48,661 bases of DNA, taken from NCBI GenBank assembly GCA_002724245.1, contig PBOG01000041.1, positions 59,840 to 108,500 of the forward strand, given 5' to 3'. This DNA is from Planctomycetaceae bacterium. Its GTDB lineage: Bacteria; Planctomycetota; Planctomycetia; Pirellulales; Pirellulaceae. The translations under genes and the position numbers were made by a program. Below are positions 6,516-45,011 of the stretch, in pieces (position 1 is the stretch's first letter; every line of letters begins with the position of its first letter). The notes below the pieces were generated by a model, which did not search any database, was not told where the DNA came from, and saw nothing but the letters and a program-made list of their open reading frames with translations.

Positions 6516-8426
6516 CTAGTCAGATCCACCGCTCGAACGGCGCGAACGGCGTACACGAAGTGCCTGCTTCGCCGCATCGGGAGCCCAAAACTTCGCGACC
6601 TGCTCAGGAGTTCCCTGGTAGACAGCCCTAAATGCCTTCTGAAATTCAACTCCTCCACCCACACTCTTCAACATGCGCTGGTAACGACGTGGGTCCTTCA
6701 TAAGAAACTTGATAAAGCTGTATGAAGCAACATCAGCCAGCTCTGCTGGCAACTTCCCTTTGAGGAAATCATCAGCCTGTTTCATCGTGTTTAGTGTCTC
6801 AACTAATTCCCGATCCCAAGCAAGGACACGTTCGTCTTTTGCCCCCATTTTCCAGGCCACAAAACGAGCAGTGCCTTCCGAGAACCAGCGTGGTACTTTG
6901 CCGTGGCTTGCCACGAAAGCCCCTGCAACTTGCTGGCCAATCAGAACATCAAGAGAAACCTGATCATCATCAGAACGCGGCCTGACCAAAGCACCGTACG
7001 CATCGACAACGTTGAATTTCCAATGGCCGCGCCAAGACCGCGGCAATTGACGTTCTTCAACCATCTTTCCGAATTCGCTGTAATCATAACGCTTCCGGAA
7101 AACAAACAACGTCATTCGGCCTTTGATCAACGGCGTCTTCTGGTCCACCTTGAAAATGTCTGCAACACGCGTGACAACACCTTCAGATATTTTTGCCACT
7201 TCTTCGAGTGTTCCTTGTGGAACATCACCCAACAGCAGAAAGTTCCTGGTTTCTACCTGCGACAGCTCACCGTCTGGCATACCCAAACGCCAGTTCTTCG
7301 CAGCCAACGACTTTCGATCCGTACTAAGCTCCTCGTGCGTAGCATTCTTGGCGCGTGCCAACGCGGCGACATCTCGAATATGACGCGTGGCATCTTCACC
7401 ATCAAAAGTAGCGCCTTCTTTGATCCAAGTCTCGATTGCCTCGACTACTTCTTTTTCCAGTGGCGGACGTCGCAAAGGCATGCGATCACCTGCCATCCCC
7501 TTCAACTTTCTGACAAGCAAGCTGTCGCCAGGTTTACCCGGCAAGACAGCTGATCCACTATCTCCGCCTCGCATCAATCCCCTGAAAGTCGTCAGATTAA
7601 ACCCACCGCTTGCGCGACGACCATTCCCATGACATCCGCCACATTGCTTTTCGAGAAGCGCTGCCAGATCACTCGCAAAATGAACGGACTCTTTGCCAGT
7701 CGACTGCACGACTTTGACTTCTGGGCGGCGACCTGCATTCGCATCGGGTGCAAATGTTGACAGCTTTACTTTTGGGTCCTCGCCATCATACTTAGCTCCC
7801 TGCTTCACCCAGTTCCTTAACAACGCAAGTTCTTCCTCAGGAATCCCCGCTCCGCTGGGAGGCATTTCCTTGCCTTCGACTGCTTCGATCAAGCGACTGC
7901 CGGCAACATCACCTGGCTTAATAACGAATCCCGCTGGCGGACCCTTCATCAACGACTCAAAGTCGGACATGCTGAACATCCCTCGACTGTTGTTGACATG
8001 ACAGCGTCCACATCGCGCCACTAATATGGGAGCAACATCCTCCTTGAAACTAATCGCTTCGTTCTTCTCCGTCTCAGAAGCCGACATCGTCTCAAGTTTT
8101 TTGAGCGGCTTCAATTCAATCCCTTGAAGCTCCAACAGAGCGTGTGCTTTAACCAGACGTTTGTACTGGAAACTCAACTGAGCCCAAAGTTGCTTGTCTT
8201 TGGAAACCGCTAACTTCTCGATCTGCTGCTGAGCTTCGACAACAAGTGCCCCACATTCTTTGAACTTCTTTTGTCTATACAGATTGCCCGCCTTGGTGAT
8301 TCGCGTCTTCAGCGCACGTAGCGACCGGCGTTCCTGCGGAGTAACATCTGCAACAGCACTACCCTGGTTTAACGCCCCCACGATCACGGCGGTCAAAACC
8401 AAAGCCCGAAAATACCATGAATGCAT
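6516..8426 (-). CDS. Planctomycete-type cytochrome c domain protein with peptidase-like tail
   Basis: This 636-residue exported protein starts with a signal peptide (MHSWYFRALVLTAVIVGALN). It has two tandem planctomycete-type cytochrome c domains, with haem sites CGRCH (about 139-143) and CGGCH (about 262-266). Each is followed by the usual MPP or MPL axial-methionine region and a domain-ending W-V/I-x-x-G-A. The C-terminal part (about 390-620) resembles a gluzincin (MA-clan) peptidase: PRWFSEGTARFVA (about 512-524) matches the downstream glutamate motif. Where HExxH is expected, the sequence reads IGQQVAG, so zinc catalysis looks lost. The start at 8426 has GGGAGA about six bases upstream. 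Such domains usually occur beside DUF1501 or DUF1553 proteins in this phylum; here none is next to it. Confidence 0.85.
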   Translation of the reverse strand: MHSWYFRALVLTAVIVGALNQGSAVADVTPQERRSLRALKTRITKAGNLYRQKKFKECGALVVEAQQQIEKLAVSKDKQLWAQLSFQYKRLVKAHALLELQGIELKPLKKLETMSASETEKNEAISFKEDVAPILVARCGRCHVNNSRGMFSMSDFESLMKGPPAGFVIKPGDVAGSRLIEAVEGKEMPPSGAGIPEEELALLRNWVKQGAKYDGEDPKVKLSTFAPDANAGRRPEVKVVQSTGKESVHFASDLAALLEKQCGGCHGNGRRASGGFNLTTFRGLMRGGDSGSAVLPGKPGDSLLVRKLKGMAGDRMPLRRPPLEKEVVEAIETWIKEGATFDGEDATRHIRDVAALARAKNATHEELSTDRKSLAAKNWRLGMPDGELSQVETRNFLLLGDVPQGTLEEVAKISEGVVTRVADIFKVDQKTPLIKGRMTLFVFRKRYDYSEFGKMVEERQLPRSWRGHWKFNVVDAYGALVRPRSDDDQVSLDVLIGQQVAGAFVASHGKVPRWFSEGTARFVAWKMGAKDERVLAWDRELVETLNTMKQADDFLKGKLPAELADVASYSFIKFLMKDPRRYQRMLKSVGGGVEFQKAFRAVYQGTPEQVAKFWAPDAAKQALRVRRSRRSSGGSD

Positions 8427-8810
8427 CGCGTTCTCCCAAATCACGTCGATGGACGGGTTACCACCATTCACGTCTCTCGATGGCCTGCCAACTCAAACCC
8501 AAACTGGCCGCCCTTTGATTTTCTCCCGGCCACATCCATTGCCGCCAGTATGTTGATGCGAAACAAGCCGGCATGACGCTGAGAAGACCGGCAATGAACA
8601 GAACGTGCCGCCACTGCCCTTGTGCGCTCGCCACGGCTGAGAACGGTTTCCTGCCCCAGGCCGACGCATTTCCTCGATTATACGCAAGACCATACGTTGT
8701 GGACAGCTAGAAACCTCGCTCGGCTGCGCGTTTACCGATGCGGACAACGTTAACAAGGCATCGCATTCAGCAGCCATGCCACCAAAACGTCCGCTTTCAG
8801 GAAACAGAAC
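8427..8810. other. Intergenic region, no convincing gene
   Basis: This stretch lies between the methyltransferase stop and the cytochrome c domain gene start, both minus strand. A 94-codon minus-strand frame is open at 8493-8777, but its sequence is cysteine- and serine-rich with no recognisable pattern and no ribosome binding site, so it is not called. The promoter of the cytochrome gene should lie here. Confidence 0.5.
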
Positions 8811-20815: not shown

Positions 20816-22015
20816 CTAGTATCCACGAGGCAGCTTGCTGCCGGCCCCGACAGGTGTTGGATCCAACATGCGTTTCAGCAACTGGCCCCCGGGATCACGT
20901 GCCATCTTATCCGTGAGCACATGAACGTCTCGCAAGATAGGGCCCAATCGGACTGTCAAACGCTCCAGGTTCGCAGCGGCGCTATTCAGCCGCTGGTATA
21001 ACTCTGGGTCTTTGATCAACAAGCCAAGAGTACCTCGGCTACTTTGCACACGTTCACTCATCATTTTCAGCTCTTGCGTCATATCCTGGATATTGGCAAG
21101 GGTCGCAGCCGCATCCGCAACCATTTCTGATCCTCGAGCGCCGAGCGGATCTGTGAACCCCTTAAGATTTTCCAGATTCTCTTCCGCCTGTTTGGTTACT
21201 TTCTCAATCTCAACCAGCGTGTTACGTGCGTCCCGGAATGTCTGTTTCCCCTGATCGACAAAAGCCGGCAGTTCACTCAACGTGCGTTTCAAGTTTGCCT
21301 GAATGTCTGGATCCCCAGCAATTTCTTCGACGCGTTGCATCGTGCGAGTTAAGGCAACCAGCGCCTCATCAGCCTGTGTCAGAATACTTTCAAGACGATT
21401 TTCGTTGCCAGCAACCACATCCGTGAGGCCCTGTGCCAACCTGGAAATATCTGCTGCTGTCGTTTCAATCGACTCAAGTGTTTGGGGGATTTGGTCTGCG
21501 ATGTTGGCCATTGAAGTGAAAGGATCAGCCTGGACCTTCCCGTCCCTCTGATGTTCACCAGACACTAATGCTACGTGTGCCGCCCTTTGCTCCGGTTCAT
21601 CGATTCTCTCATTTTCGTTCTTGTCATAACCTCTATCAATCAACTCAGCTTCGGTAGCCTTGATGAACTCCAAAACCGCATCGCCCGTGACAAGTGAATT
21701 CGTGCCGATGCGACAAACTTCGTCCTTGTAAATTGTGTATTTGCTGAACAGGGTTAGTTCAACGTCAACAGTGCCATTTTCTTCATTCAGTGTTACATCG
21801 ACGACACGACCGATCAGGACACCGCTTTTACGTACTGGCGTATCACGGGTCACCCCTGGGGCTTCAGCAAATTCGATGTACACCACAATGTCATCACCCT
21901 GCCACGCCCGAATCACAGACTGGCTCTCACCAAACAGGATCACCAGAATTCCCGTGATCGCTACCGCCGCCAAGACGACGACACCAACGCGAATTTGTAG
22001 CGTTCTTTCGTCCAT
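20816..22015 (-). CDS. mlaD: MCE/MlaD-family lipid transport protein
   Basis: This 399-residue protein has one N-terminal membrane helix (about 7-28) and an MCE domain at about 35-120, including YIEFAEAPGVTRDTPVRKSG and IGRVVDVTL, and continuing through VTGDAVLEF. An insertion (about 130-160) is acidic and charged. The second half is a long heptad-rich helical region, compatible with a coiled coil or tunnel-forming needle as in PqiB/YebT-like MCE proteins. MlaD holds phospholipid for transfer across the periplasm. It is the last gene of the E-F-D order, 55 bases after mlaF. The ATG at 22015 has GGTGG upstream; an earlier in-frame TTG is less likely. Confidence 0.92.
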   Translation of the reverse strand: MDERTLQIRVGVVVLAAVAITGILVILFGESQSVIRAWQGDDIVVYIEFAEAPGVTRDTPVRKSGVLIGRVVDVTLNEENGTVDVELTLFSKYTIYKDEVCRIGTNSLVTGDAVLEFIKATEAELIDRGYDKNENERIDEPEQRAAHVALVSGEHQRDGKVQADPFTSMANIADQIPQTLESIETTAADISRLAQGLTDVVAGNENRLESILTQADEALVALTRTMQRVEEIAGDPDIQANLKRTLSELPAFVDQGKQTFRDARNTLVEIEKVTKQAEENLENLKGFTDPLGARGSEMVADAAATLANIQDMTQELKMMSERVQSSRGTLGLLIKDPELYQRLNSAAANLERLTVRLGPILRDVHVLTDKMARDPGGQLLKRMLDPTPVGAGSKLPRGY

Positions 22016-22070
22016 TCCGTCCACCGTTACCAACAGGGCAACCGCAATTGCAGCCGCCTCTAGAAATCGG

Positions 22071-22889
22071 CTAGTGCAAAACTTCAGTCAATCGGGACCC
22101 CGCTTCACCTCGAACAAATTGACCCACCCGAGGGTCCTGTATTCGCTCCAGTTCGCTCGGCGGCCCGTCAAATATGATTTGGGGATCACCATCGTTGAGT
22201 TGGTCAACCGGCGCGAGCATGACAATACGGTCCGCGACCTTTCGAGCGGTTCTCATATCGTGCGTCACAACCACACTCGTGACGGTATAGCGACTGCGTG
22301 TGCGAATAATTAACTCATTAATGACATCGGACATGATCGGATCCAGTCCAGTCGTTGGCTCGTCATAAAGCACTAACTCCGGATCCAGAATCAGTGCACG
22401 AGCCAAACCAACTCGCTTTCTCATGCCGCCCGACAACTCGACAGGTTTCTTCAGTACGACATGTCTGGGCAAACCGACTTCAGCCAACCGCTCAACAACA
22501 TGATCGGGAATCTCCGCAGCGTCCATGCGTACATGATGACGCAAGGGAAATGCGACATTTTGCCCAACCGTCATGCTGTCAAATAGGGCTGCCTGTTGAA
22601 ATACAAACCCAATCTTGATCCGCTCCCGCGTGAGTTCTTGTTCGTTCAGGTGCTGCAGTTCCAGCCCATTGAACCAGACTTTTCCTTGCTCTGGCCTGAC
22701 CAGGCCAATCATCGACTTCAACAATACGGTCTTTCCGCAACCACTCTCGCCAATAATGGCCAACGTCTGCCCACGTGGTATTTCCAGCGTCAAGTCACGC
22801 AATATCGTGTACGATCCAAAACGCACACGAATTTCCTGCAAATGCAACAGCGGCTCGTTCACGTCAGCGTTGGAATCCGTCAGCATCAT
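22071..22889 (-). CDS. mlaF: MlaF-like ABC transporter ATP-binding protein
   Basis: This 272-residue ATPase has Walker A GESGCGKT (about 47-54), Q-loop FVFQQAALFDSMTVGQNVAFP, signature ELSGGMRKR (about 151-159), Walker B LVLYDEP (about 172-177) and the H-loop histidine in VVVTHDM. The signature LSGGMRKRVGLARAL and the Q-loop wording are those of the Mla/Ttg2/MCE subfamily, not of general importers. It powers MlaE-MlaD lipid movement between the inner membrane and the envelope. It lies between mlaE and mlaD in the same orientation, with short gaps, in a three-gene operon. No MlaC or MlaB homologue is seen near by. Confidence 0.95.
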   Translation of the reverse strand: MMLTDSNADVNEPLLHLQEIRVRFGSYTILRDLTLEIPRGQTLAIIGESGCGKTVLLKSMIGLVRPEQGKVWFNGLELQHLNEQELTRERIKIGFVFQQAALFDSMTVGQNVAFPLRHHVRMDAAEIPDHVVERLAEVGLPRHVVLKKPVELSGGMRKRVGLARALILDPELVLYDEPTTGLDPIMSDVINELIIRTRSRYTVTSVVVTHDMRTARKVADRIVMLAPVDQLNDGDPQIIFDGPPSELERIQDPRVGQFVRGEAGSRLTEVLH

Positions 22890-22939
22890 TGGAAATCTCG
22901 AGGTACCCTTAGATGAAATTGATCACGCCCGCGCATCAA

Positions 22940-23788
22940 TCAAAACAAACTCGCACCCTGCGGCCATACGGTGTAATAGAACGAATCCAACAAAATCCCC
23001 AGGAACAAATCCAGCATCAAGATCAGCACAAAGGAAATCACAAAAGAAGTCGTCGCGGCGTGCCCGACACCTTCAGCACCTGGCCGGCAATGGAACCCTC
23101 GATAGCAACTTACAATTGCAATTGCCGCGCCAAAAAAGAAGCTCTTGAACAACCCTGCAAAAAGATCAAACGCCTCAACAAACTGCTCAGAGTTATAGAG
23201 GTAGTAGTGCTCATCGATGCCAAGAATCGCAACACTGTAGCCGTAGCCTCCCACAAACCCCATGAAATCGGCCATCACCGTCAGAGTAGGGATCAAAAAT
23301 AGACAAGCCAAGACACGTGGTACCACCAGGTAGTGAATCGGGTTGGCCCCCATACTATCCAATGCGTCGATCTGTTCCGTAACACGCATGGTTCCCAATT
23401 CGGCGGCCATCGCACTCCCCACCCGACCAGCCAACATGGTGGCCGCCAAAACTGGCCCCAACTCCCGTACCAGCGTCATATTGATGACCGCGCCCAAGCG
23501 GGATTCCAATCCTAACTGGCTAAACTGGAAGTGACTCTGAACAGCCAACACCATGCCAATAAATGTGCCAGTGAGCGCAACGACCGGAAGACTAAGTACA
23601 CCTACCTGATAAAGATTTGGCCATAAAGACTCTGGATGCGGCCGTTTGGTTAACATCCAACGTAGCGTCTTCCAGGCAAACAGCGTCATCGCCCCAACGG
23701 TCTCTACACCATCCAGTACGACACGGCCCCAATTCGCCATCCAATCCGCAAACAGGACGCCTGTACGCTGTATTACAGCTGAATTCAT
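22940..23788 (-). CDS. mlaE: MlaE-family ABC transporter permease
   Basis: This 282-residue protein is an MlaE (YrbE) permease. Visible hallmarks are the amphipathic N-terminus, VALTGTFIGMVLAVQSHFQF, LVRELGPVLAATMLAGRVGSAMAAELGTMRVTEQIDAL (the family's conserved cytoplasmic stretch, quoted here in two halves: up to MLAGR, then VGSAM onward), NPIHYLVVPRVLA, and a C-terminal helix. It forms the membrane part of the phospholipid transport complex with MlaF and MlaD. It is the first gene of the operon; its stop is 50 bases before the mlaF start. No strong ribosome binding site precedes the ATG. Confidence 0.95.
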   Translation of the reverse strand: MNSAVIQRTGVLFADWMANWGRVVLDGVETVGAMTLFAWKTLRWMLTKRPHPESLWPNLYQVGVLSLPVVALTGTFIGMVLAVQSHFQFSQLGLESRLGAVINMTLVRELGPVLAATMLAGRVGSAMAAELGTMRVTEQIDALDSMGANPIHYLVVPRVLACLFLIPTLTVMADFMGFVGGYGYSVAILGIDEHYYLYNSEQFVEAFDLFAGLFKSFFFGAAIAIVSCYRGFHCRPGAEGVGHAATTSFVISFVLILMLDLFLGILLDSFYYTVWPQGASLF

Positions 23789-35996: not shown

Positions 35997-36365
35997 TACT
36001 ACACCTTCATATAACTTGACGAAATAAGATTAGCATCACATTTCTCAGATGCGTCACTAGCCACGCGCCTCGACAGCGTATCACTCAAGAGCCCCACGCC
36101 ACAAGGCACCATGCTACACCGGTGTAGACAAGCGTGAACGCGACAGGATCCTCAGCAGATGCCAGGTCACTTCAGCTGCCGCTTCCCCCGTTCCTCTGGT
36201 CGAGCACACACGCTTGCCTGTCTTTGTCGAAAGGACTCCTGCAGCAGTCATTCGGATAGCATCTCAAGCCAGATTCCGCAATAATGACCGGTTGTGAAAC
36301 ATGGTCGGAACCAACCTAATCCGAGCGTGTGTCAGTCAGATAATGTTCTGTGCGGAGCAGCTCCC
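35997..36365. other. Divergent intergenic region with palindrome
   Basis: This region lies between the PfkB kinase gene and the secreted TPR protein gene and should contain both promoters. The main feature is a perfect 14-base palindrome at 36114-36127. A short plus-strand extension of the TPR frame reaches 36294 but is not used because it lacks a ribosome binding site and would bury the signal peptide. Confidence 0.5.
36114..36127. promoter_or_regulatory. Perfect 14-base palindrome, possible operator
   Basis: CTACACCGGTGTAG reads identically on both strands. It lies in the divergent region about 118 bases upstream of the PfkB start and about 240 bases upstream of the TPR gene start. Its length and symmetry fit a dimeric repressor site, but no repressor gene lies near and no second copy was noticed. 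Confidence 0.35.
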
Positions 36366-38042
36366 ATGCCTCAAAGATTCCTTCTCCTCGGTGTGATCGC
36401 TTTCTTATTCACCGAAGCATCGTTGACAGCTCTCCAAGCCGAAACCAAAGGCCAGGACGATCTTGACCAGGCTATTGAACTACAGCTAACCGCACGAACT
36501 CCAGCAGATCTAGAGCGTGTTTCCGCCCTATGCGAGTCCGCGATCAAGAAGGGACTCGAAAAAGACAATGAGAACTTTGCGAAGCAACTCCTCTCATCAA
36601 CGTTGTTTCAGATTTCTCGCCGGCTCGGAACTGCGGTTCTAGCACAACAGCAACCAAAGAATCCGCGTTGGCAGGCAATGCGAAAAAAAGCTCTCGACAA
36701 TCTGACCAAGGGATTCAGTTACGACAAAACCAGTGGCGACGCCTACACATTGTTTGCGCGCCTGCAGTCAGTGCCCGGTGGCAACAAAGAAGAAGCTCGC
36801 GAAGCCGCGAACAAGGCGATTGAGTTGTTCGAAGAAGACAATCGCAAGAAAGCCGAAGCATTACTGCTGCGGGCGGGTCTACAGACTGACACCAAGAAAC
36901 AATTGTCCGATGTTGACAAAGCGATTGAAACCGACCCTGAAAACGTTTCGGGCTGGCAATTGCGGGCTATCTATTACTTCCAGAACAACGATATTCCGAA
37001 AGGCATCACCAATCTCGAGAAGGTGCTGGAACTGGACCCCAAGAACGTAACCGCATTGCAACAACTGGCAACGGCTTACTTTTCCACGGAAAAAGAAGAG
37101 CAGGGGAGAGAAAAACTCGACCAGATAGTTGAAATCCAGCCAGCAATTGGCTACCCACTGAGATCTCGGTATTTCCAATCCCAGGGTAATATCAGCAAGG
37201 CAATTGAGGATCTCGATGCAGCCATTGATCTCAATCCACAACGCCTAGATTGGGTACTGATGCGGGCGGACCTTTATCGCCGTGAGCGGGCCTTCGACAA
37301 AGCTCGAAATGACGTTTCTCGTTTACTGAACCGTAATCCCGATCTCTGGCAAGCCCGGTATTTGCGTAGCCAGATTCTTGCCGATGAAGGAAAACTACCT
37401 GCGGCAATCGCTGAAATGCTATCGCTCGTACGTGGCCAAACACAAAACCTCAGTCTTAGAGCTGAATTGATTCAGCTCTATGTACGTGATAACCGACCAC
37501 GCAAGGCAGTTGAAGAATGCACGAAGGTATTGAATTCCCAAGCTGGCCACCCAACTTTTCTCAGTATGCGTGCCACCGCGTATATCAACATTGGAAAGCA
37601 TGCTCTGGCAATCAAGGACTACGACATCGCTCTGGAAAAACTTCCGGACAGCGAACATATGCTGAACAACCTGTCCTGGATCTTATCAACCTCAAAAGAT
37701 GATGCGCTACGGGATGGCAAACGTGCTCTGGAACTAGGTAAACGCGCATGCGAGATCACCAATTACAAAGCAGCCTACATTTTGAGTACTTACGCTGCGG
37801 GTTTTGCAGAATTAGGCGACTGGGAAAACGCCACGAAATGGTCGACCAAGGCCGTTGAGTTGAGCCGAGAGGACCTGGCTAAAGCATCCACCCCAGACGA
37901 CAAAAAGAAGCAAAAGGAAACGGTCGACCATCTTGAACAAGAACTGGAAAGTTACAAACAGATGAAACCTTGGCGGGAAAAACAAGAGACTAAAGAAAAC
38001 ACGGCGCCTATCCGCATTGGGGGAGGCAATCCGGCGACCTGA
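36366..38042 (+). CDS. Secreted TPR-repeat protein
   Basis: This 558-residue protein has a signal peptide (MPQRFLLLGVIAFLFTEAS, cleavage probably near LQAET) and a body of repeated TPR helices. Repeats are visible, for example GWQLRAIYYFQNNDIPKGI, LEKVLELDPKNVTALQQLA, IEDLDAAIDLNPQRLDWVLM and AIKDYDIALEKLPDSEHMLN, with the A-x-x-x-Y/F-x-x-A-I-x-x-x-P pattern. About ten units can be counted. The last 60 residues are highly charged and end IRIGGGNPAT. The start at 36366 places the signal first, with GGAG upstream. The next gene starts 56 bases later on the same strand. TPR arrays scaffold protein complexes; no partner is evident. Confidence 0.9.
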   Translation: MPQRFLLLGVIAFLFTEASLTALQAETKGQDDLDQAIELQLTARTPADLERVSALCESAIKKGLEKDNENFAKQLLSSTLFQISRRLGTAVLAQQQPKNPRWQAMRKKALDNLTKGFSYDKTSGDAYTLFARLQSVPGGNKEEAREAANKAIELFEEDNRKKAEALLLRAGLQTDTKKQLSDVDKAIETDPENVSGWQLRAIYYFQNNDIPKGITNLEKVLELDPKNVTALQQLATAYFSTEKEEQGREKLDQIVEIQPAIGYPLRSRYFQSQGNISKAIEDLDAAIDLNPQRLDWVLMRADLYRRERAFDKARNDVSRLLNRNPDLWQARYLRSQILADEGKLPAAIAEMLSLVRGQTQNLSLRAELIQLYVRDNRPRKAVEECTKVLNSQAGHPTFLSMRATAYINIGKHALAIKDYDIALEKLPDSEHMLNNLSWILSTSKDDALRDGKRALELGKRACEITNYKAAYILSTYAAGFAELGDWENATKWSTKAVELSREDLAKASTPDDKKKQKETVDHLEQELESYKQMKPWREKQETKENTAPIRIGGGNPAT

Positions 38043-38098
38043 TCTGTAGGTCTGCGAGATTCGAAATCACTTCTTCCGCTGACGTCTTGCCCACCGCT

Positions 38099-38665
38099 AT
38101 GAACCGTGACGCCGCGTACGATCTCGTCTGCGAATACACACAAAGCGACAGCTTGCGTCGTCACATGCGCTGTGTCGAACTCGCCATGCAGGCTTATGCA
38201 CGCAAATTTGGCGAGGACGAAAACAAGTGGGGAATCGTTGGCCTCCTGCACGATTTCGATTATGAGCGCTGGCCCGATGCGCCCGACCACCCGCTTAAGG
38301 GTTCAGAGATCCTCACAGAACGTGGATACCCGGAGGATGTCATTTACGCCATCAAGTCACACGCAGATTATCTGACCGATTGTCCACGGACTTCTCTTCT
38401 CGACAAAACGCTATACGCTTGCGACGAATTAGCAGGTTTCCTCACTGCATGTGCGATGGTGAGACCCAGTGGACTCCTTGGAATGAAATCGAAGAGTGTC
38501 GTAAAAAAAATGAAACAAAAGGGATTCGCAGCAGCTGTGAAGCGAGACGACCTACATCGTGGAGCCGCAGACCTTGGCGTTGACCTGAAAGAACACATTC
38601 AGTTCGTCATAGACGCTCTCGAGTGCCATGCTGAAGAGCTGGCACTTACACGCAACGATGCGTGA
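38099..38665 (+). CDS. HD-domain metal-dependent hydrolase
   Basis: This 188-residue protein has the HD superfamily layout: histidine in LRRHMRCVELAM (about 22), HD in LLHDFDYERWP (about 51-52), His in IKSHADY (about 88) and Asp in YACDELAGF (about 109). The metal site would hydrolyse a phosphate ester, possibly a nucleotide. The pattern SLRRHMRCVE and HDFDYERWPDAPDHP is shared with a group of predicted hydrolases often annotated simply as HD domain protein. The ATG at 38099 is chosen; a TTG 12 bases earlier is possible. It follows the TPR gene by 56 bases and converges with the cytochrome gene. Confidence 0.88.
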   Translation: MNRDAAYDLVCEYTQSDSLRRHMRCVELAMQAYARKFGEDENKWGIVGLLHDFDYERWPDAPDHPLKGSEILTERGYPEDVIYAIKSHADYLTDCPRTSLLDKTLYACDELAGFLTACAMVRPSGLLGMKSKSVVKKMKQKGFAAAVKRDDLHRGAADLGVDLKEHIQFVIDALECHAEELALTRNDA

Positions 38666-38717: not shown

Positions 38718-41564
38718 TTACCGGTTGCTCACCGCCGGTGCGGTCTGGGTCAATGGATAAACGACAACTGGCTCTGCAGAGCGACTCGCCGTGGGATACC
38801 GTTTGTGAGCGAGTGCCGCGACCATGCCCCACGCGTGATCGTCTGCGCGATAACGCCGGAACAGCTCCCCGTGTCGATTTGCGAGGGCCGTTTGACCCAA
38901 CAACGCGTAGAGACGCTGAAGGTTGTGGTGGGCAACAGGGTGCTCGGAATCAACCTTCAGCGCAGTTCCAAACACCTCAACCGCACTACGCATTAGAGTC
39001 TCGGCACCTTCTGCATCATCTATCGCATACCGCCGTGCCGCCTGGTCAAATAAAGTCGAACCCAACAGATGAATAATTTCGACATCCTTGCTGAAATCAA
39101 ATCCACGTCGCCGCATGTCCTCCGTCTGATAACTCAAAACGTTCCGGAAGTTCTGTTCAGCCTCAACCAATCGCCCTTGCCTGCGATTCGCTACCCCCGT
39201 CAGCCACTCCTTAGTCCAGAATGGCCCGGTTTCCGTGAATTGCTCCAGCTTTTGCAGCACAGAAACGGCTTTTTGATTACGACCTTCTCGAAGATAAACT
39301 CTGACCAGATTCAACAGTCCCTCGACTCGCCCATGTTCAACCACTTGCTGAAACGCATTTGCCGCCTGACGTAATTCAACACCACCAACCAACAATCCTA
39401 TCCCGTAATCATTCCATCGCTCCCAAGGCTCGGCCACAAACTCCGGCATATCCGCTCCTTGATCGGATTCACTAACCGGGAAGGTCACTGTGTCCGAAGC
39501 AAGGGTCACAACAGGAAGACGATTGAAATACGGTTGACCTGGCTGGTGACCAGGAATCGGCTTGATCTCGTCACCATCGACATTGGCAATAAAGTCCGTG
39601 TATGGAACATCGAACTTGCGGTAATTCAGTTTCACCTCAACGGTCACAGAATCGGTCACGTCCAGCGGCAAGTGAAGCCCATAGCGAACGACCTGCGATG
39701 CGTCAGGAGGGATTTGGTGATCATACATCGCAACAAACATATCCTGGGTGTTGCGATGAACAACGCGGTTCCCATTCCTGTCTAGCATAAACACGTTGAA
39801 GAAATGCGCTGCCGGGTCAACCTCTCGATTAGAACTCAGCATACCGCTGTGGGCGATAATTCTGTCCCCACTGCGAACGGTAACTTCCAGCCAAACCTGG
39901 TTAGAATCACTCGTGCCCCCCGTAAAACGGTGGGCAATCTTTAATGCTCGGACAACCGTCTCAAACAAGTAATCCCGGCCGGGTGTAAGCACTGGCACCA
40001 GAGGGCGCAACGGCGCGTGAAGCTTCCCTTCCCGTGCAGCAATATCCTTCACACCAAAAAGGTCAACACGCACAGCCCCCTGCAAGAATTCCGTTTGTGC
40101 CGCTGTCGCTCCGGGTAGATTCTTGAACCAGGTAACTCCCGTGTTGCCTCCCAGGAATTGGTGGTCATGGATACTTGGGTTGTTTTTTCCCTCTGCCACG
40201 TAGGCACGCGCGGAAAAATCATTGGAATCTCTCAATGGCATATGACATTGAGAACAACTCTTGGCAGCCTTCTCCGGATAGTAAAAAGCCCTAGCAGTAC
40301 GCCCCGACAACCCGCTATTCAAGAAGGAATCATAGTGATTCTGTCCGCGTTGAAAGTCATGAACGCGCGTTAATTCACGCGGCAAATGTTGTTTGTGGCA
40401 GGTCGAACAAAACTCAATCGTTTTATGGAACGGCTTAAGCATCGATTTCTTGTGGAAATCTGGCTTGGCCTTAACCAATGTGTGATTCAACAGTTGCAAT
40501 AGTGGACGTTGACTGTACGCAAACGGATAGTGCAGAGGCTCTTCAATTACATAGTCGGCATTCCCTCTATTACTGTTGATGTGGGTAATGGCGTGACACG
40601 AAGTGCAGGTAATACCAGCCTGTGCGGATTCATCAAGCGTCACATTAAAACTAGGGTTCTCGAACTCTCCGGAAAAAAACGGCACTGGATCATGGCAACC
40701 TGCACACCACCGAAGCGCTTTCTGATTTCCGTCGCGACGTGAAAGGGCCTTGCCGGTTTGATTGATGGTCGCGAGATAGGCAGGGTTGTTAAACGAACTA
40801 AACCGATGGGCACTATGAAACCACCCATCAAAAGCATCCGGATGGCATTGCATACAATACTGATCATTCAGCAACGCACGTTTCGCAATGAACTTGCCAT
40901 TGACCGTCCGCGCGGCAGACGGATGAAAATAGAAGTCACCCTCTGCAGAACCTTTTTGATACCACTCCCTTGGATCCTGCGATTGCAGGCCGACCATCAC
41001 GAGAACGACCACTCCAACAGCAGCTAGAAATACAACTCCTTGTCGCCAACGAATACGTGTACCTGCCAGGCGGTGTAACCAATAAAGCCAAAGTACGACG
41101 AGAGGGCAAACCACATGCAACCAATAAACAGCAACTCTTATCCAAGGCTCTTTGAGATCAAACAAGCCCGGAATACGCACCAGCGCCAATCCGGTTCCCA
41201 GAACGACGAGCCCCCCCACAAATACACCGTAACCGATGTGAATTGCCCGGCGATTACGACGCCGAAGAGCCAATCGCAAATGAAATACGCTAAAGGTGAC
41301 AAATGGCACAACGAGGAGCAAGCCAATCGCCAGATGCAAACCGAACATCCACAAGAAGAACAGGTTCTCGTAACTCTTGCCCTTAATCCAGGTCAACAAT
41401 GAAATCGACAACAAATACAGAGAGTTTGCTGCGAGTAAAGCAACCAATGAGAAGACAACCAACAAGAGGATCCGCAATCGCGGACCAATAGTAGGGCGAT
41501 AACGGGTTCGCGAAACCGGAACAGTGCTTGCAGGAGGGGCGACTGCCATCTCGCCATCACTCAT
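38718..41564 (-). CDS. Fused membrane b-type-like / five-haem c-type cytochrome with TPR-like tail
   Basis: This 948-residue protein joins three parts. First, five hydrophobic segments (about 31-57, 68-97, 108-130, 143-165 and 175-193) with histidines at about 77, 95, 109, 150 and 164, arranged as in di-haem membrane b-type cytochromes. Second, an extracytoplasmic cytochrome c554-like region with five CxxCH sites at about 237 (CMQCH), 287 (CAGCH), 320 (CTSCH), 386 (CSTCH) and 437 (CSQCH), plus many free histidines such as IHDHQF that could be distal ligands. Third, a beta-rich segment and a helical TPR-like region (about 740-910). It may move electrons from membrane quinol to a periplasmic acceptor. 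Start overlaps the upstream stop as ATGA. Confidence 0.88.
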   Translation of the reverse strand: MSDGEMAVAPPASTVPVSRTRYRPTIGPRLRILLLVVFSLVALLAANSLYLLSISLLTWIKGKSYENLFFLWMFGLHLAIGLLLVVPFVTFSVFHLRLALRRRNRRAIHIGYGVFVGGLVVLGTGLALVRIPGLFDLKEPWIRVAVYWLHVVCPLVVLWLYWLHRLAGTRIRWRQGVVFLAAVGVVVLVMVGLQSQDPREWYQKGSAEGDFYFHPSAARTVNGKFIAKRALLNDQYCMQCHPDAFDGWFHSAHRFSSFNNPAYLATINQTGKALSRRDGNQKALRWCAGCHDPVPFFSGEFENPSFNVTLDESAQAGITCTSCHAITHINSNRGNADYVIEEPLHYPFAYSQRPLLQLLNHTLVKAKPDFHKKSMLKPFHKTIEFCSTCHKQHLPRELTRVHDFQRGQNHYDSFLNSGLSGRTARAFYYPEKAAKSCSQCHMPLRDSNDFSARAYVAEGKNNPSIHDHQFLGGNTGVTWFKNLPGATAAQTEFLQGAVRVDLFGVKDIAAREGKLHAPLRPLVPVLTPGRDYLFETVVRALKIAHRFTGGTSDSNQVWLEVTVRSGDRIIAHSGMLSSNREVDPAAHFFNVFMLDRNGNRVVHRNTQDMFVAMYDHQIPPDASQVVRYGLHLPLDVTDSVTVEVKLNYRKFDVPYTDFIANVDGDEIKPIPGHQPGQPYFNRLPVVTLASDTVTFPVSESDQGADMPEFVAEPWERWNDYGIGLLVGGVELRQAANAFQQVVEHGRVEGLLNLVRVYLREGRNQKAVSVLQKLEQFTETGPFWTKEWLTGVANRRQGRLVEAEQNFRNVLSYQTEDMRRRGFDFSKDVEIIHLLGSTLFDQAARRYAIDDAEGAETLMRSAVEVFGTALKVDSEHPVAHHNLQRLYALLGQTALANRHGELFRRYRADDHAWGMVAALAHKRYPTASRSAEPVVVYPLTQTAPAVSNR

Positions 41565-41944
41565 GAAGAAATCGACTTGACGGCCGCTTTGGACTTCTCT
41601 GGAAGAGCGGATTCTGAAGGCGTTCGCTTTTGCTCGGAATCTTGCTCGTTGGGATCTGTAGTCTTGGTTGCATCTGCTGGAGACTCTTTCCTTGACGCAG
41701 TGCCAGGCTCCCTGGCGGCCTTCAAATCCTCAGTAGACTTATCCTGGGCAACACGTGCACCACCGTCCCGCAGGTCCTGTATTTCCCATTGATAGTTTGT
41801 GTCATCCCAAACACCATCACCTTGAGAATTCACGGCTTCCATTCTGCTCATTTTATCCAGATCATTAGCGGTTGGCTGATAATCGGTTTCCTGGCCGCAG
41901 CCGGTCAACATCAATATGCCGCACCAAATCCAAACGAGTCTCAT
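41561..41944 (-). CDS. Small lipoprotein coupled to the fused cytochrome
   Basis: This 127-residue protein has a lipoprotein signal (MRLVWIWCGILMLTGC), with lipidation expected at Cys 16. A short conserved-looking segment follows (DYQPTANDLDKMSRMEAV and VWDDTNYQWEIQDLRDG), then a low-complexity, Glu-, Lys-, Ser- and Pro-rich tail. The start at 41944 has GGAGGTG five bases upstream. Its stop codon overlaps the cytochrome start in ATGA, so the two are translated as a pair. The pairing suggests it is a dedicated envelope subunit or assembly factor of the cytochrome; I know of no named family. Confidence 0.85.
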   Translation of the reverse strand: MRLVWIWCGILMLTGCGQETDYQPTANDLDKMSRMEAVNSQGDGVWDDTNYQWEIQDLRDGGARVAQDKSTEDLKAAREPGTASRKESPADATKTTDPNEQDSEQKRTPSESALPEKSKAAVKSISS

Positions 41945-42436
41945 TTCCACCTCCACTGCTGGCACTTCTTTCGAAGTGTCTGACGGCAAAATCGACACGC
42001 GAGACGACGGCAGTCGCATCTGCGGAATTTCTTCCCTAACCACAAATGACTGTCAAAATTGGCGACGCCATCACCTCATATCGTTGCAAATTCATCTTAA
42101 CATCGCACGGCAAACGAGCCAAAACCAACTTTTGAGAATCTCTTCCCTCGGTCGCAAGTCGACGAACGCCACCCGATCAAGCAACAACGACAGCCAGCCA
42201 GGTAAAAAGCCAGCTGCCTCGGAATCTTAGCGAACGTCTTTATCTCGATTACTTCGCCCCTACAGTTTCATAGCTCGACATGGGCAATTGGCAAGTGGAC
42301 GCGCCAAACAGGGCTTGCCTGGTAGGACTTGCCACACGTCCGGGACACAGGCCGACAGTAAACCGTTTGCAGCATTATCGCTAGAACCGCCTGGCGTCCC
42401 CAGCACAACGCGACGTCCGTAACATCGTCACAGACA
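41945..42436. other. Intergenic region upstream of the cytochrome operon
   Basis: This stretch lies between the YggS-family gene stop and the lipoprotein start, both minus strand. It should hold the promoter of the lipoprotein-cytochrome operon. A longer frame of the lipoprotein reaches 42043, and a plus-strand frame of 104 codons lies at 41916-42230, but neither has supporting features. No strong hairpin was found. Confidence 0.5.
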
Positions 42437-43232: not shown

Positions 43233-45011
43233 CTATTCGATTTCAATCAAAGTCTCAACACTGCCGTTGGTGTGAAATCGTCCGCAGATATATTCACAAC
43301 CCAGATTCTGCCCCAATACGGTTCGAATTCGCTTCGCGGCCAAAGAGCGATAAAACATCCACTGGCGCCGCCCGATCTGAACTCGATAGCCCGTCGCAAC
43401 GTCGCGCGGCTGAACCTGAAGATCTTCGGCAACCGTTAGTTGACGCCACGTGTACGGTTTCGTCCGCTGCCTGGGATCAAGGTCAATAAACAACGGCACC
43501 TCTAGCCGTGAAGCCACCCCTCGCTGTTTAAGCAATAATCCACTGGTTGTCACAGTCAATTCGCCATCCGCTGGGGCTGCACGCCATTCAGGTAATGAGA
43601 GAGGCAACGCAAGAAACCGTGGCTTGCGGCGATCCGAAATAGTCACCTCGCGGGTCTCGTCAGCCGGCTGCAAATGCATCGACTCATGAAGCGGCCAGGA
43701 AACCTCAAGATCGATTTCAACAGGCTTCTTGCCCAATACGACATGGCCGAGCAACAAGAACTCTTCTTTTCTCGCCACCAAAACCTGCCGCTGCAACACG
43801 ATACCGTTTCCCAATGGGGCTTCCAATTCCAGATAAACAACATCCTCGTCACTGAACCAGCACAATTCAGACCAGCGTCCCTGAACCGCCAGTCGTTTTC
43901 CGTCGACACAAACATCTGCTTTCCAGGGACCAGTAAAAATCTGCTGGGTCCCGCGACTTAATCCGGCAAAGACAGAATCTTCTCCGAATATCACTCCCAG
44001 GTCAGTCTTACCACGGCCCCATCCCCCCCGCATGACCGCGATGCCAGCCCATTCCGAACAAACGGAAGCGTCTGGCAGAGATTTCCTGGAGGATCGTTTT
44101 GCAGATCCAGGCCAACCAGAGAAGAGCCGGCTGGCTACCATTTGGTCGTGAGGGTCACCCGACAACTTCAGCGCCGCCTGAGACAACTTCCGCCAATCTC
44201 CGATCTCATCCGCATCACAAAATATCTGGGAACCATCCCCCCTCGACAACCGGAGCATCTGCAACACCATCCAGTCATATTGTTCTTGCGCTGCCTCGGT
44301 CAAACATAACCTGTCGTTAGCACATGCCAGGGATTGACACCTTGTCCAGGATGCCAGTAGGGGCCGAAAACTCTCTATCGCTCGCGAGTGGATTAACCCC
44401 TCTCCATCGAGTAGATCAATCAGCGCTGCTGAGAGCAGCTCAGAAGCGGAATCATGCAATTCCTGGCATTGATCCAGTTCGGGAAACAGACACACCAGAA
44501 TCAACGGCAACTCGCCGACAAGCCATTGTTGCACAAGCGGATCGTCACTGGGTGACGATCGTCTGGCATCGTTGGCAACCTCTACCAATTGGTCCAAGAG
44601 TTCGCACCAAGGTGCGGCAGGAAGTTCACGTGCCAGATCGACGAGCGCATAGCTCCAAGCGATACATTCCAGACACAACGTGCGGCTCACCTCACGAGCG
44701 GGCAAACCCTGCAACCAGCCTTCCAGTTCCGTCGCAATAGCAGTGTCTAATGACTTCCGTTTCGACTTCCGCTTTCGAGCGACATTCTCCAGGTTGCTCA
44801 AGAGGGGCAACGCATCATTGACGCCATGCCCGTCACTCAACCCCCAACGTAACGCCTTGCGTCCGCCGGATTTGACCGCCTCGCGCAGGCCAATAGGTTT
44901 TATACGGTTCTGCAGGTGCTGCACCCACTGTTCCCAATCACTCGGGTCGGGTGTGCCGGCGTCCAGCCGTACTGCATTTTGTTTCTTCGCAACCGTGAGT
45001 GACCCTGACAT
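43233..45011 (-). CDS. Large uncharacterised protein, heparinase-like architecture suspected
   Basis: This 592-residue protein has no signal peptide. The first 300 residues are alpha-helical (for example LPLLSNLENVARKRKSKRKS and QEQYDWMVLQMLRLSRGDG), and the last 280 are beta-rich with GIAVMRGGWGRGKTDLGVIF, LQRQVLVARKEEFLLLGHVV and WMFYRSLAAKRIRTVLGQNL. A helical toroid followed by a beta-sandwich resembles heparinase II/III-type enzymes and their relatives, but I see no catalytic Tyr/His pattern I can trust. I do not recognise the family. It lies in a short minus-strand pair with yggS and is divergent from the YdjY gene. Confidence 0.75.
   Translation of the reverse strand: MSGSLTVAKKQNAVRLDAGTPDPSDWEQWVQHLQNRIKPIGLREAVKSGGRKALRWGLSDGHGVNDALPLLSNLENVARKRKSKRKSLDTAIATELEGWLQGLPAREVSRTLCLECIAWSYALVDLARELPAAPWCELLDQLVEVANDARRSSPSDDPLVQQWLVGELPLILVCLFPELDQCQELHDSASELLSAALIDLLDGEGLIHSRAIESFRPLLASWTRCQSLACANDRLCLTEAAQEQYDWMVLQMLRLSRGDGSQIFCDADEIGDWRKLSQAALKLSGDPHDQMVASRLFSGWPGSAKRSSRKSLPDASVCSEWAGIAVMRGGWGRGKTDLGVIFGEDSVFAGLSRGTQQIFTGPWKADVCVDGKRLAVQGRWSELCWFSDEDVVYLELEAPLGNGIVLQRQVLVARKEEFLLLGHVVLGKKPVEIDLEVSWPLHESMHLQPADETREVTISDRRKPRFLALPLSLPEWRAAPADGELTVTTSGLLLKQRGVASRLEVPLFIDLDPRQRTKPYTWRQLTVAEDLQVQPRDVATGYRVQIGRRQWMFYRSLAAKRIRTVLGQNLGCEYICGRFHTNGSVETLIEIE

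Follow-up and report, generated by a model that had tools for sequence, protein, structure and literature searches.

In the NrfH-NrfA system a membrane part passes electrons to a periplasmic pentahaem protein, and NrfH is itself a c-type haem protein of the NapC family. CbcL from Geobacter sulfurreducens carries two haems b and nine haems c on a single chain (excerpts of PMC9129911). The pentahaem cytochrome (PHC) family, with ExtKL and Gsu2801, is structurally related to Thermochromatium tepidum c552 (excerpts of PMC11976967), and haem b binding in vitro has been shown for a purified DUF4405 protein of another bacterium (excerpts of PMC11334425). Here, we analysed a 48,661-nucleotide stretch of the genome of Planctomycetaceae bacterium (GenBank assembly GCA_002724245.1, contig PBOG01000041.1, positions 59,840 to 108,500 of the forward strand; hereafter the window), which encodes a fused cytochrome, P0001, with a membrane domain, a pentahaem c domain, an immunoglobulin-like domain and a tetratricopeptide repeat (TPR) tail in this order. 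We favour, with some reserve, the interpretation that P0001 is a single-chain, quinone-linked membrane b/c cytochrome acting as an electron conduit in the outward direction.

The 948-residue open reading frame (ORF) described in an initial annotation, made from the sequence alone, is confirmed; it runs on the minus strand (from 41564 to 38718), a point left unstated there, and the tested frame of the plus strand contains many stops. The five membrane helices named in that annotation correspond to five hydrophobic segments (residues 24-60, 66-101, 107-137, 140-167 and 171-198), and its five CxxCH sites are all present, while 5000 shuffled versions of P0001 contained 0.004 such motifs on average and one at most. 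Its cytochrome c554-like region is also found, with PF13435 matching residues 237-324 at 27.6 bits (cut-off 20.8). The TPR-like C-terminal part is borne out only just, by TPR_19 at 25.2 bits (cut-off 25.0). In the structure model of the whole chain this part consists of helices (residues ~730-905), and seven of the ten ten-residue blocks in residues 801-900 have a predicted local distance difference test (pLDDT) value of at least 85. A second copy in the same genome, 56% identical to P0001, contains a clearer TPR (TPR_11, 39.8 bits; cut-off 26.8). The immunoglobulin-like domain with its conserved H545, like the gene neighbourhood, had been overlooked. The genome also encodes a cytochrome c assembly gene (PF01578).

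Conservation was assessed on 193 matches of more than 50 bits and at least 450 residues, of which 170 sequences remained after removal of duplicates; homologue counts cover fetched sequences, a subset of the phylum-wide matches. An earlier alignment comprised 106 sequences of 600-1500 residues, from which L028, L070 and L096 were then dropped. Five CxxCH motifs occur in 122 of the 170 sequences, four CxxCH and one CX4CH in 44, and other combinations in 4. When a profile built from the core of P0001 and those of 13 relatives was compared with the PDB, it matched cytochrome c552 (5ze8, which we take to be the Thermochromatium c552 protein; E 1.4e-18), MccSep (2.6e-8) and c554 (5.9e-5). The immunoglobulin-like part, which forms beta strands in the low-confidence model, aligns separately and weakly with the first two (10.8 bits with 5ze8, 7.5 bits with MccSep). 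Judged by profile, the haem core belongs with the pentahaem c552-like proteins. The NCBIfam model ExtKL matches P0001 with E 2.5e-5 at 23.1 bits, far below its cut-off of 250, and P0001 is therefore not ExtKL itself.

Outside the CxxCH motifs, four histidines are near-invariant (H371 and H468 in all 170 sequences, H253 and H545 in 169 each), and position 410 is variable, with H in 69, E in 43 and Q in 31 of the sequences. As there are five haems for four such histidines, one haem would have an outer ligand that varies. This haem could form an open catalytic site, as in NrfA, HAO and MccA, and P0001 would then be an enzyme for the reduction or oxidation of a small molecule, not a wire; the core profile, besides its match to MccSep, also touches MccA and, weakly, NrfA-type chains. 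We consider an enzymatic role unlikely. The fifth ligand could be supplied by a different residue or by a histidine whose alignment column varies, and a pattern search of P0001 for CxxCK, the NrfA-type catalytic haem motif, was negative. The model of the core is inadequate in this respect (ten-residue blocks of residues 201-480 at pLDDT 22-57).

For the membrane part, we selected the 152 of the 170 sequences that have H77 and H150, so that both are at 100% by construction. In the remaining 18, H77, H150 or both are missing, which we read as a membrane region that is absent or cut; two of them, L096 and L187, are cut at contig edges. The initial annotation had listed five histidines placed like b-haem ligands (77, 95, 109, 150 and 164). 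All five are present in P0001, but H109 is not conserved (R 47, K 26, V 14 and L 14 among the 152 relatives) and was rejected as a ligand, which leaves four candidates. These four occur together in 125 of the 152 sequences, with constant spacings of 18 (H77-H95) and 14 residues (H150-H164) in all 125. Together with the invariant G81 (152 of 152), they are among the most conserved membrane residues. Since 18 residues make five helical turns, both histidines of helix 2 would face one way. Incomplete sets are found in 27 sequences, of which 17 lack both H95 and H164, 5 keep only H95 and 5 only H164; these are L026, L027 and 25 acidobacterial sequences (among L188-L223), the latter term denoting genomes of the same phylum as the acidobacterial relative L025. 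Sequences that keep H77/H150 without H95, H164 or both look as if they held one haem b only. The candidate pairs proposed earlier, H77/H150 and H95/H164, fit this pattern of kept and lost sites.

The helices could also be a mere anchor, with histidines that play a structural role. The 17 relatives devoid of both H95 and H164 would suit this explanation, as would the 18 sequences with a missing or cut membrane region (two of them at contig edges), but the conservation of the four histidines and G81 (that of H77 and H150 being set by the choice of sequences), together with the profile match of the membrane domain to a cytochrome b-like family, makes it highly improbable.

That membrane domain looks like a di-haem b-type cytochrome, as indicated by its histidines, by profile comparison and by structural alignment of its model. 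Two small membrane proteins encoded beside homologous cytochromes in Shinella and Nitratiruptor match Pfam DUF4405 with 23.7 and 31.9 bits, respectively (cut-off 26.7), and one relative, G074, exceeds that cut-off (29.3 bits). With hhalign, a profile of the membrane part (78 sequences) aligned with the profile of these DUF4405-like proteins, which consists of two sequences only, at a probability of 92.4 (P 5e-7); the alignment spans 123 columns and brings the histidines into register. The probability was 85.6 for the sequences nearest P0001 and 56.8 for shorter relatives, and reversed profiles of the window family gave 0.2-0.4 against the same target. The model of the membrane domain has a pLDDT of 77.7 and a predicted template modelling score of 0.68. 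Aligned with VIA-align, it best matches HyaC cytochrome b (Z 11.0), cytochrome b6 (10.3) and FdnI (10.2), and the best 15 rows comprise 10 b-type cytochromes and 5 designed bundles. Many of the proteins matched by Pfam DUF4405 in Planctomycetota resemble cytochrome b6; this Pfam model alone is therefore a loose test.

A number of results weigh against a conduit with two haems b. The membrane part of P0001 matches no Pfam or NCBIfam membrane-cytochrome model, and that of the paralogue L002 matches neither DUF4405 nor cytochrome b561. Among ten family members scanned, DUF4405 was found in seven and cytochrome b561 in five, all below cut-off and mixed with weak matches to unrelated membrane families. 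The reversed membrane profile aligned with its own forward version at 52.4 (15.6 for a narrower set), so that hydrophobic helices alone can score, and the hhalign probability was 1.2 against seven other DUF4405-type proteins and 0.6 against cytochrome b6-type sequences. In VIA-align, designed bundles reach Z 10.1, and helical bundles below Z 13 may be chance matches; Foldseek gave no matches to the membrane model at E <= 0.001 (the first rows being STEAP2 and STEAP1). When tested on a tree, the joint loss of H95 and H164 was not significant (4-6 supported pairs, median p 1), and one of the two is retained alone in 10 of the 152 sequences. The whole-chain model is poor (pLDDT 53.7), and P0001 alone found no cytochrome in the PDB.

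Helices 2 and 4 are followed by arginine-rich loops, which suggests that the N terminus is inside and the haems c are outside, which would place H77 and H150 on the outer side. In the conduit that we favour, the five helices, with the N terminus inside and the C terminus outside, would accommodate a transmembrane stack of two haems b, the outer one between H77 of helix 2 and H150 of helix 4, and the inner one between H95 and H164. Electrons from quinol would pass through the inner and outer haems b to the five periplasmic haems c and from there to a periplasmic partner. The immunoglobulin-like domain would close the haem c chain, and the TPR tail that follows is likely to bind a further protein.

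For most relatives, the likely partner is the product of the next gene, a membrane-anchored CRTAC1 propeller protein. We scored the 161 of the 170 sequences that have at least 800 bp downstream and called CRTAC1 wherever the L031 or L034 protein matched by BLAST with 60 bits or more, on the same strand and across a gap of less than 300 bp. With CRTAC1 at distances of 394 bp and 3.3 kb, respectively, L042 and L069 hence count as lacking it. A CRTAC1 gene lies directly downstream on the same strand in 119 of the 143 membrane-bearing sequences versus 3 of the 18 without a membrane part. For long membrane-bearing sequences (at least 860 residues) the counts are 58 of 72 and, in the acidobacterial set, 37 of 45; for shorter ones they are 20 of 21 and 4 of 5. 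The L031 protein has the FG-GAP and ASPIC/UnbV domains, and an N-terminal hydrophobic stretch is present in three CRTAC1 proteins. The genome that encodes P0001 has 14 ASPIC/UnbV matches, about one per 480 genes by a rough gene count, and chance adjacency with the cytochrome is therefore unlikely. TPR as the basis of the pairing was rejected, as 24 of 26 shorter sequences without TPR also lie beside CRTAC1. Neighbours common to L056-L058 (clusters c20-c22) were not used as evidence, because these are close relatives and the shared genes look like ordinary synteny.

Directly downstream of P0001 in the window there is no CRTAC1 gene, nor is there one in the nearest relatives L022 and L023; the paralogue in the same genome (locus L031) does have one. 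The copy in the window presumably has a different partner, or relies on CRTAC1 from another locus of the genome. CRTAC1 genes adjoin homologues of hydrazine synthase genes in excerpts of PMC12758564, and in those of PMC3174227 ASPIC/UnbV is a mere table entry.

Six records of a plasmid collection match P0001 (two from Shinella, two from Nitratiruptor, and one each from Aeromonas and Granulicella). An FTR1 iron permease gene directly follows the cytochrome gene in four of them, namely both Shinella records, Nitratiruptor YY08-14 and Aeromonas; the second Nitratiruptor record is equal in length and match position to YY08-14. An imelysin gene is located two genes before the cytochrome in both Shinella HZN7 and Nitratiruptor YY08-14, and a gene for a small membrane protein, annotated as DUF4405 in the former and as hypothetical in Nitratiruptor, directly precedes it. 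Shinella PSBB067 shares the frame for the small membrane protein, and one frame upstream of its cytochrome had no family matches. Because the membrane and haem parts are separate neighbouring genes in Shinella and Nitratiruptor, the fusion in P0001 is real. These clusters of a small histidine-bearing membrane protein, a pentahaem cytochrome and FTR1 are those of Aeromonas caviae (L224, 4900-9162) and of L029, L030 and L225 (Shinella, Nitratiruptor). In Aeromonas, the gene before the cytochrome encodes a membrane protein of 149 residues in which H-x18-H and H-x13-H spacings were counted by eye, and the N-terminal half of the cytochrome itself resembles YVTN propeller repeats by eye, with no Pfam match at 0.01.

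FTR1 systems generally operate together with an iron oxidant. The FTR1 and imelysin genes in these records would thus suit a flow in the inward direction, in which a periplasmic donor, such as ferrous iron or a substrate handled by CRTAC1, would reduce the haems c, and the haems b would relay the electrons to the quinone pool. We regard inward flow as rather doubtful. An FTR1 context would also fit a ferric reductase, the Granulicella record has CRTAC1 genes in place of FTR1, iron families are absent among the window genes scanned, and the genome that encodes P0001 (98.8% complete) has no FTR1 match. Going beyond the outward conduit in P0001 itself, we tentatively consider it possible that P0001 represents an unnamed, widespread module of di-haem b, pentahaem c and propeller partner, fused in Planctomycetota and Acidobacteriota, of which the split version in Pseudomonadota and Campylobacterota would stand in for a copper oxidase or peroxidase in the iron redox chemistry of FTR1 systems, perhaps with one haem c as an open catalytic site.

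Of the 294 Planctomycetota genomes sampled in the survey that the initial annotation had suggested, 122 have a match at E <= 0.001 (in part confined to the haem region), and at least 43 have one that is nearly end to end (query start at or before 40, query end at or after 939) among the matches listed. Near relatives have a match in 21 of 30 genomes, and the orthologue is present in both other sampled members of the genus, with 84 and 74% identity. In the phylum of L025 there are matches at the same threshold, again some to the haem part only, in 104 of 247 genomes, at least 20 of which have a nearly end-to-end match among those listed. Eleven Leptospira records match over 38% of the query with 23-25% identity; a phage collection contained no match to the core. 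Pfam and NCBIfam models catch only fragments of this cytochrome.

Upstream of P0001, a 160-residue ORF ends in a stop codon that overlaps the start codon of P0001 by four bases (ATGA), and the two are perhaps cotranslated. This ORF is also found in L022 and L023 and matches no Pfam family at E 1. Promoter and terminator scans gave fewer sites than shuffled sequences.

Table 1. Features of P0001 and the adjoining ORF, with positions in the window and residue numbers of P0001.
Feature	Position	Strand	Basis
P0001, 948-residue fused cytochrome	38718..41564	-	ORF
Membrane domain, residues 28-198, five helices, di-haem b-like	40971..41483	-	segments, profile match, models
H77, candidate outer-side haem b ligand, pairs with H150	41334..41336	-	conservation
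H95, candidate inner-side haem b ligand, pairs with H164	41280..41282	-	conservation
H150, candidate outer-side haem b ligand	41115..41117	-	conservation
H164, candidate inner-side haem b ligand	41073..41075	-	conservation
Pentahaem c domain, residues 200-480, c554-like/pentahaem c552-like	40125..40967	-	Pfam and profile match
Haem c site 1, CMQCH 237-241	40842..40856	-	CxxCH pattern
Haem c site 2, CAGCH 287-291	40692..40706	-	CxxCH pattern
Haem c site 3, CTSCH 320-324	40593..40607	-	CxxCH pattern
Haem c site 4, CSTCH 386-390	40395..40409	-	CxxCH pattern
Haem c site 5, CSQCH 437-441	40242..40256	-	CxxCH pattern
Immunoglobulin-like beta domain, residues 495-700, with conserved H545	39465..40082	-	low-confidence model strands, weak alignment
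TPR-like helical tail, residues 730-905	38850..39377	-	TPR_19 at 732-773 marginal; model helices
160-residue ORF upstream of P0001, lipobox-like LTGC	41561..42043	-	ORF; in two nearest relatives

Other genes of the window were noted in passing. A 582-residue TPR-repeat protein is encoded two genes from P0001 in convergent orientation (36294-38042, plus strand), and an HD-domain gene (38087-38665) adjoins it. On the minus strand, a 651-residue protein contains a planctomycete cytochrome c domain (PSCyt1; 6516-8471), genes for MlaD, an ABC ATPase and MlaE lie in a row and are probably a lipid-transport operon (20816-23788), and a 592-residue protein that is also present in the two nearest relatives matches nothing in Pfam or NCBIfam at E 1 (43233-45011).

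NrfH-NrfA, the comparison made in the initial annotation, is not the nearest one. P0001 has no match to NapC/NirT (PF03264) and no CxxCH in its membrane part, and CbcL already unites haems b and c in one chain. Like P0001, CbcL combines a membrane di-haem b part with a periplasmic multihaem c part; it is an inner-membrane quinone oxidoreductase, whereas the quinone link of P0001 is putative, and it has six helices and nine haems c compared to the five helices and five CxxCH motifs of P0001 (excerpts of PMC9129911). The immunoglobulin-like and TPR parts of P0001 are not described for CbcL in those excerpts, and the likeness drawn here is one of architecture. Members of the PHC family share the combination of a pentahaem and an immunoglobulin-like domain, but excerpts of PMC11976967 describe neither a membrane b domain nor a TPR tail for them. 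DUF4405 cytochromes resemble the P0001 family in having four histidines in a membrane bundle; unlike P0001, which is below Pfam detection, they are described with flavinylated proteins and ferrosomes (excerpts of PMC11334425). The imelysin, membrane protein, cytochrome and FTR1 clusters of Shinella and Nitratiruptor hold the two cytochrome parts of P0001 as separate adjacent genes, but differ from the P0001 family in their iron permease context and in having neither TPR nor CRTAC1.

In our searches of the open literature we found no description of a fusion that joins a DUF4405-like membrane part to a pentahaem core and TPR, and no account of its CRTAC1 gene link or its FTR1 version. If P0001 is a quinone-linked conduit, electrons would have an additional, uncharacterised way across the membrane in two large phyla with few cultivated members, and CRTAC1 propeller genes would gain a definite candidate redox partner. 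In culturable bacteria, the version with separate genes beside FTR1 makes the chemistry testable. On our best reading, P0001 extends the known single-chain b/c cytochromes, such as CbcL, by a new combination of domains.

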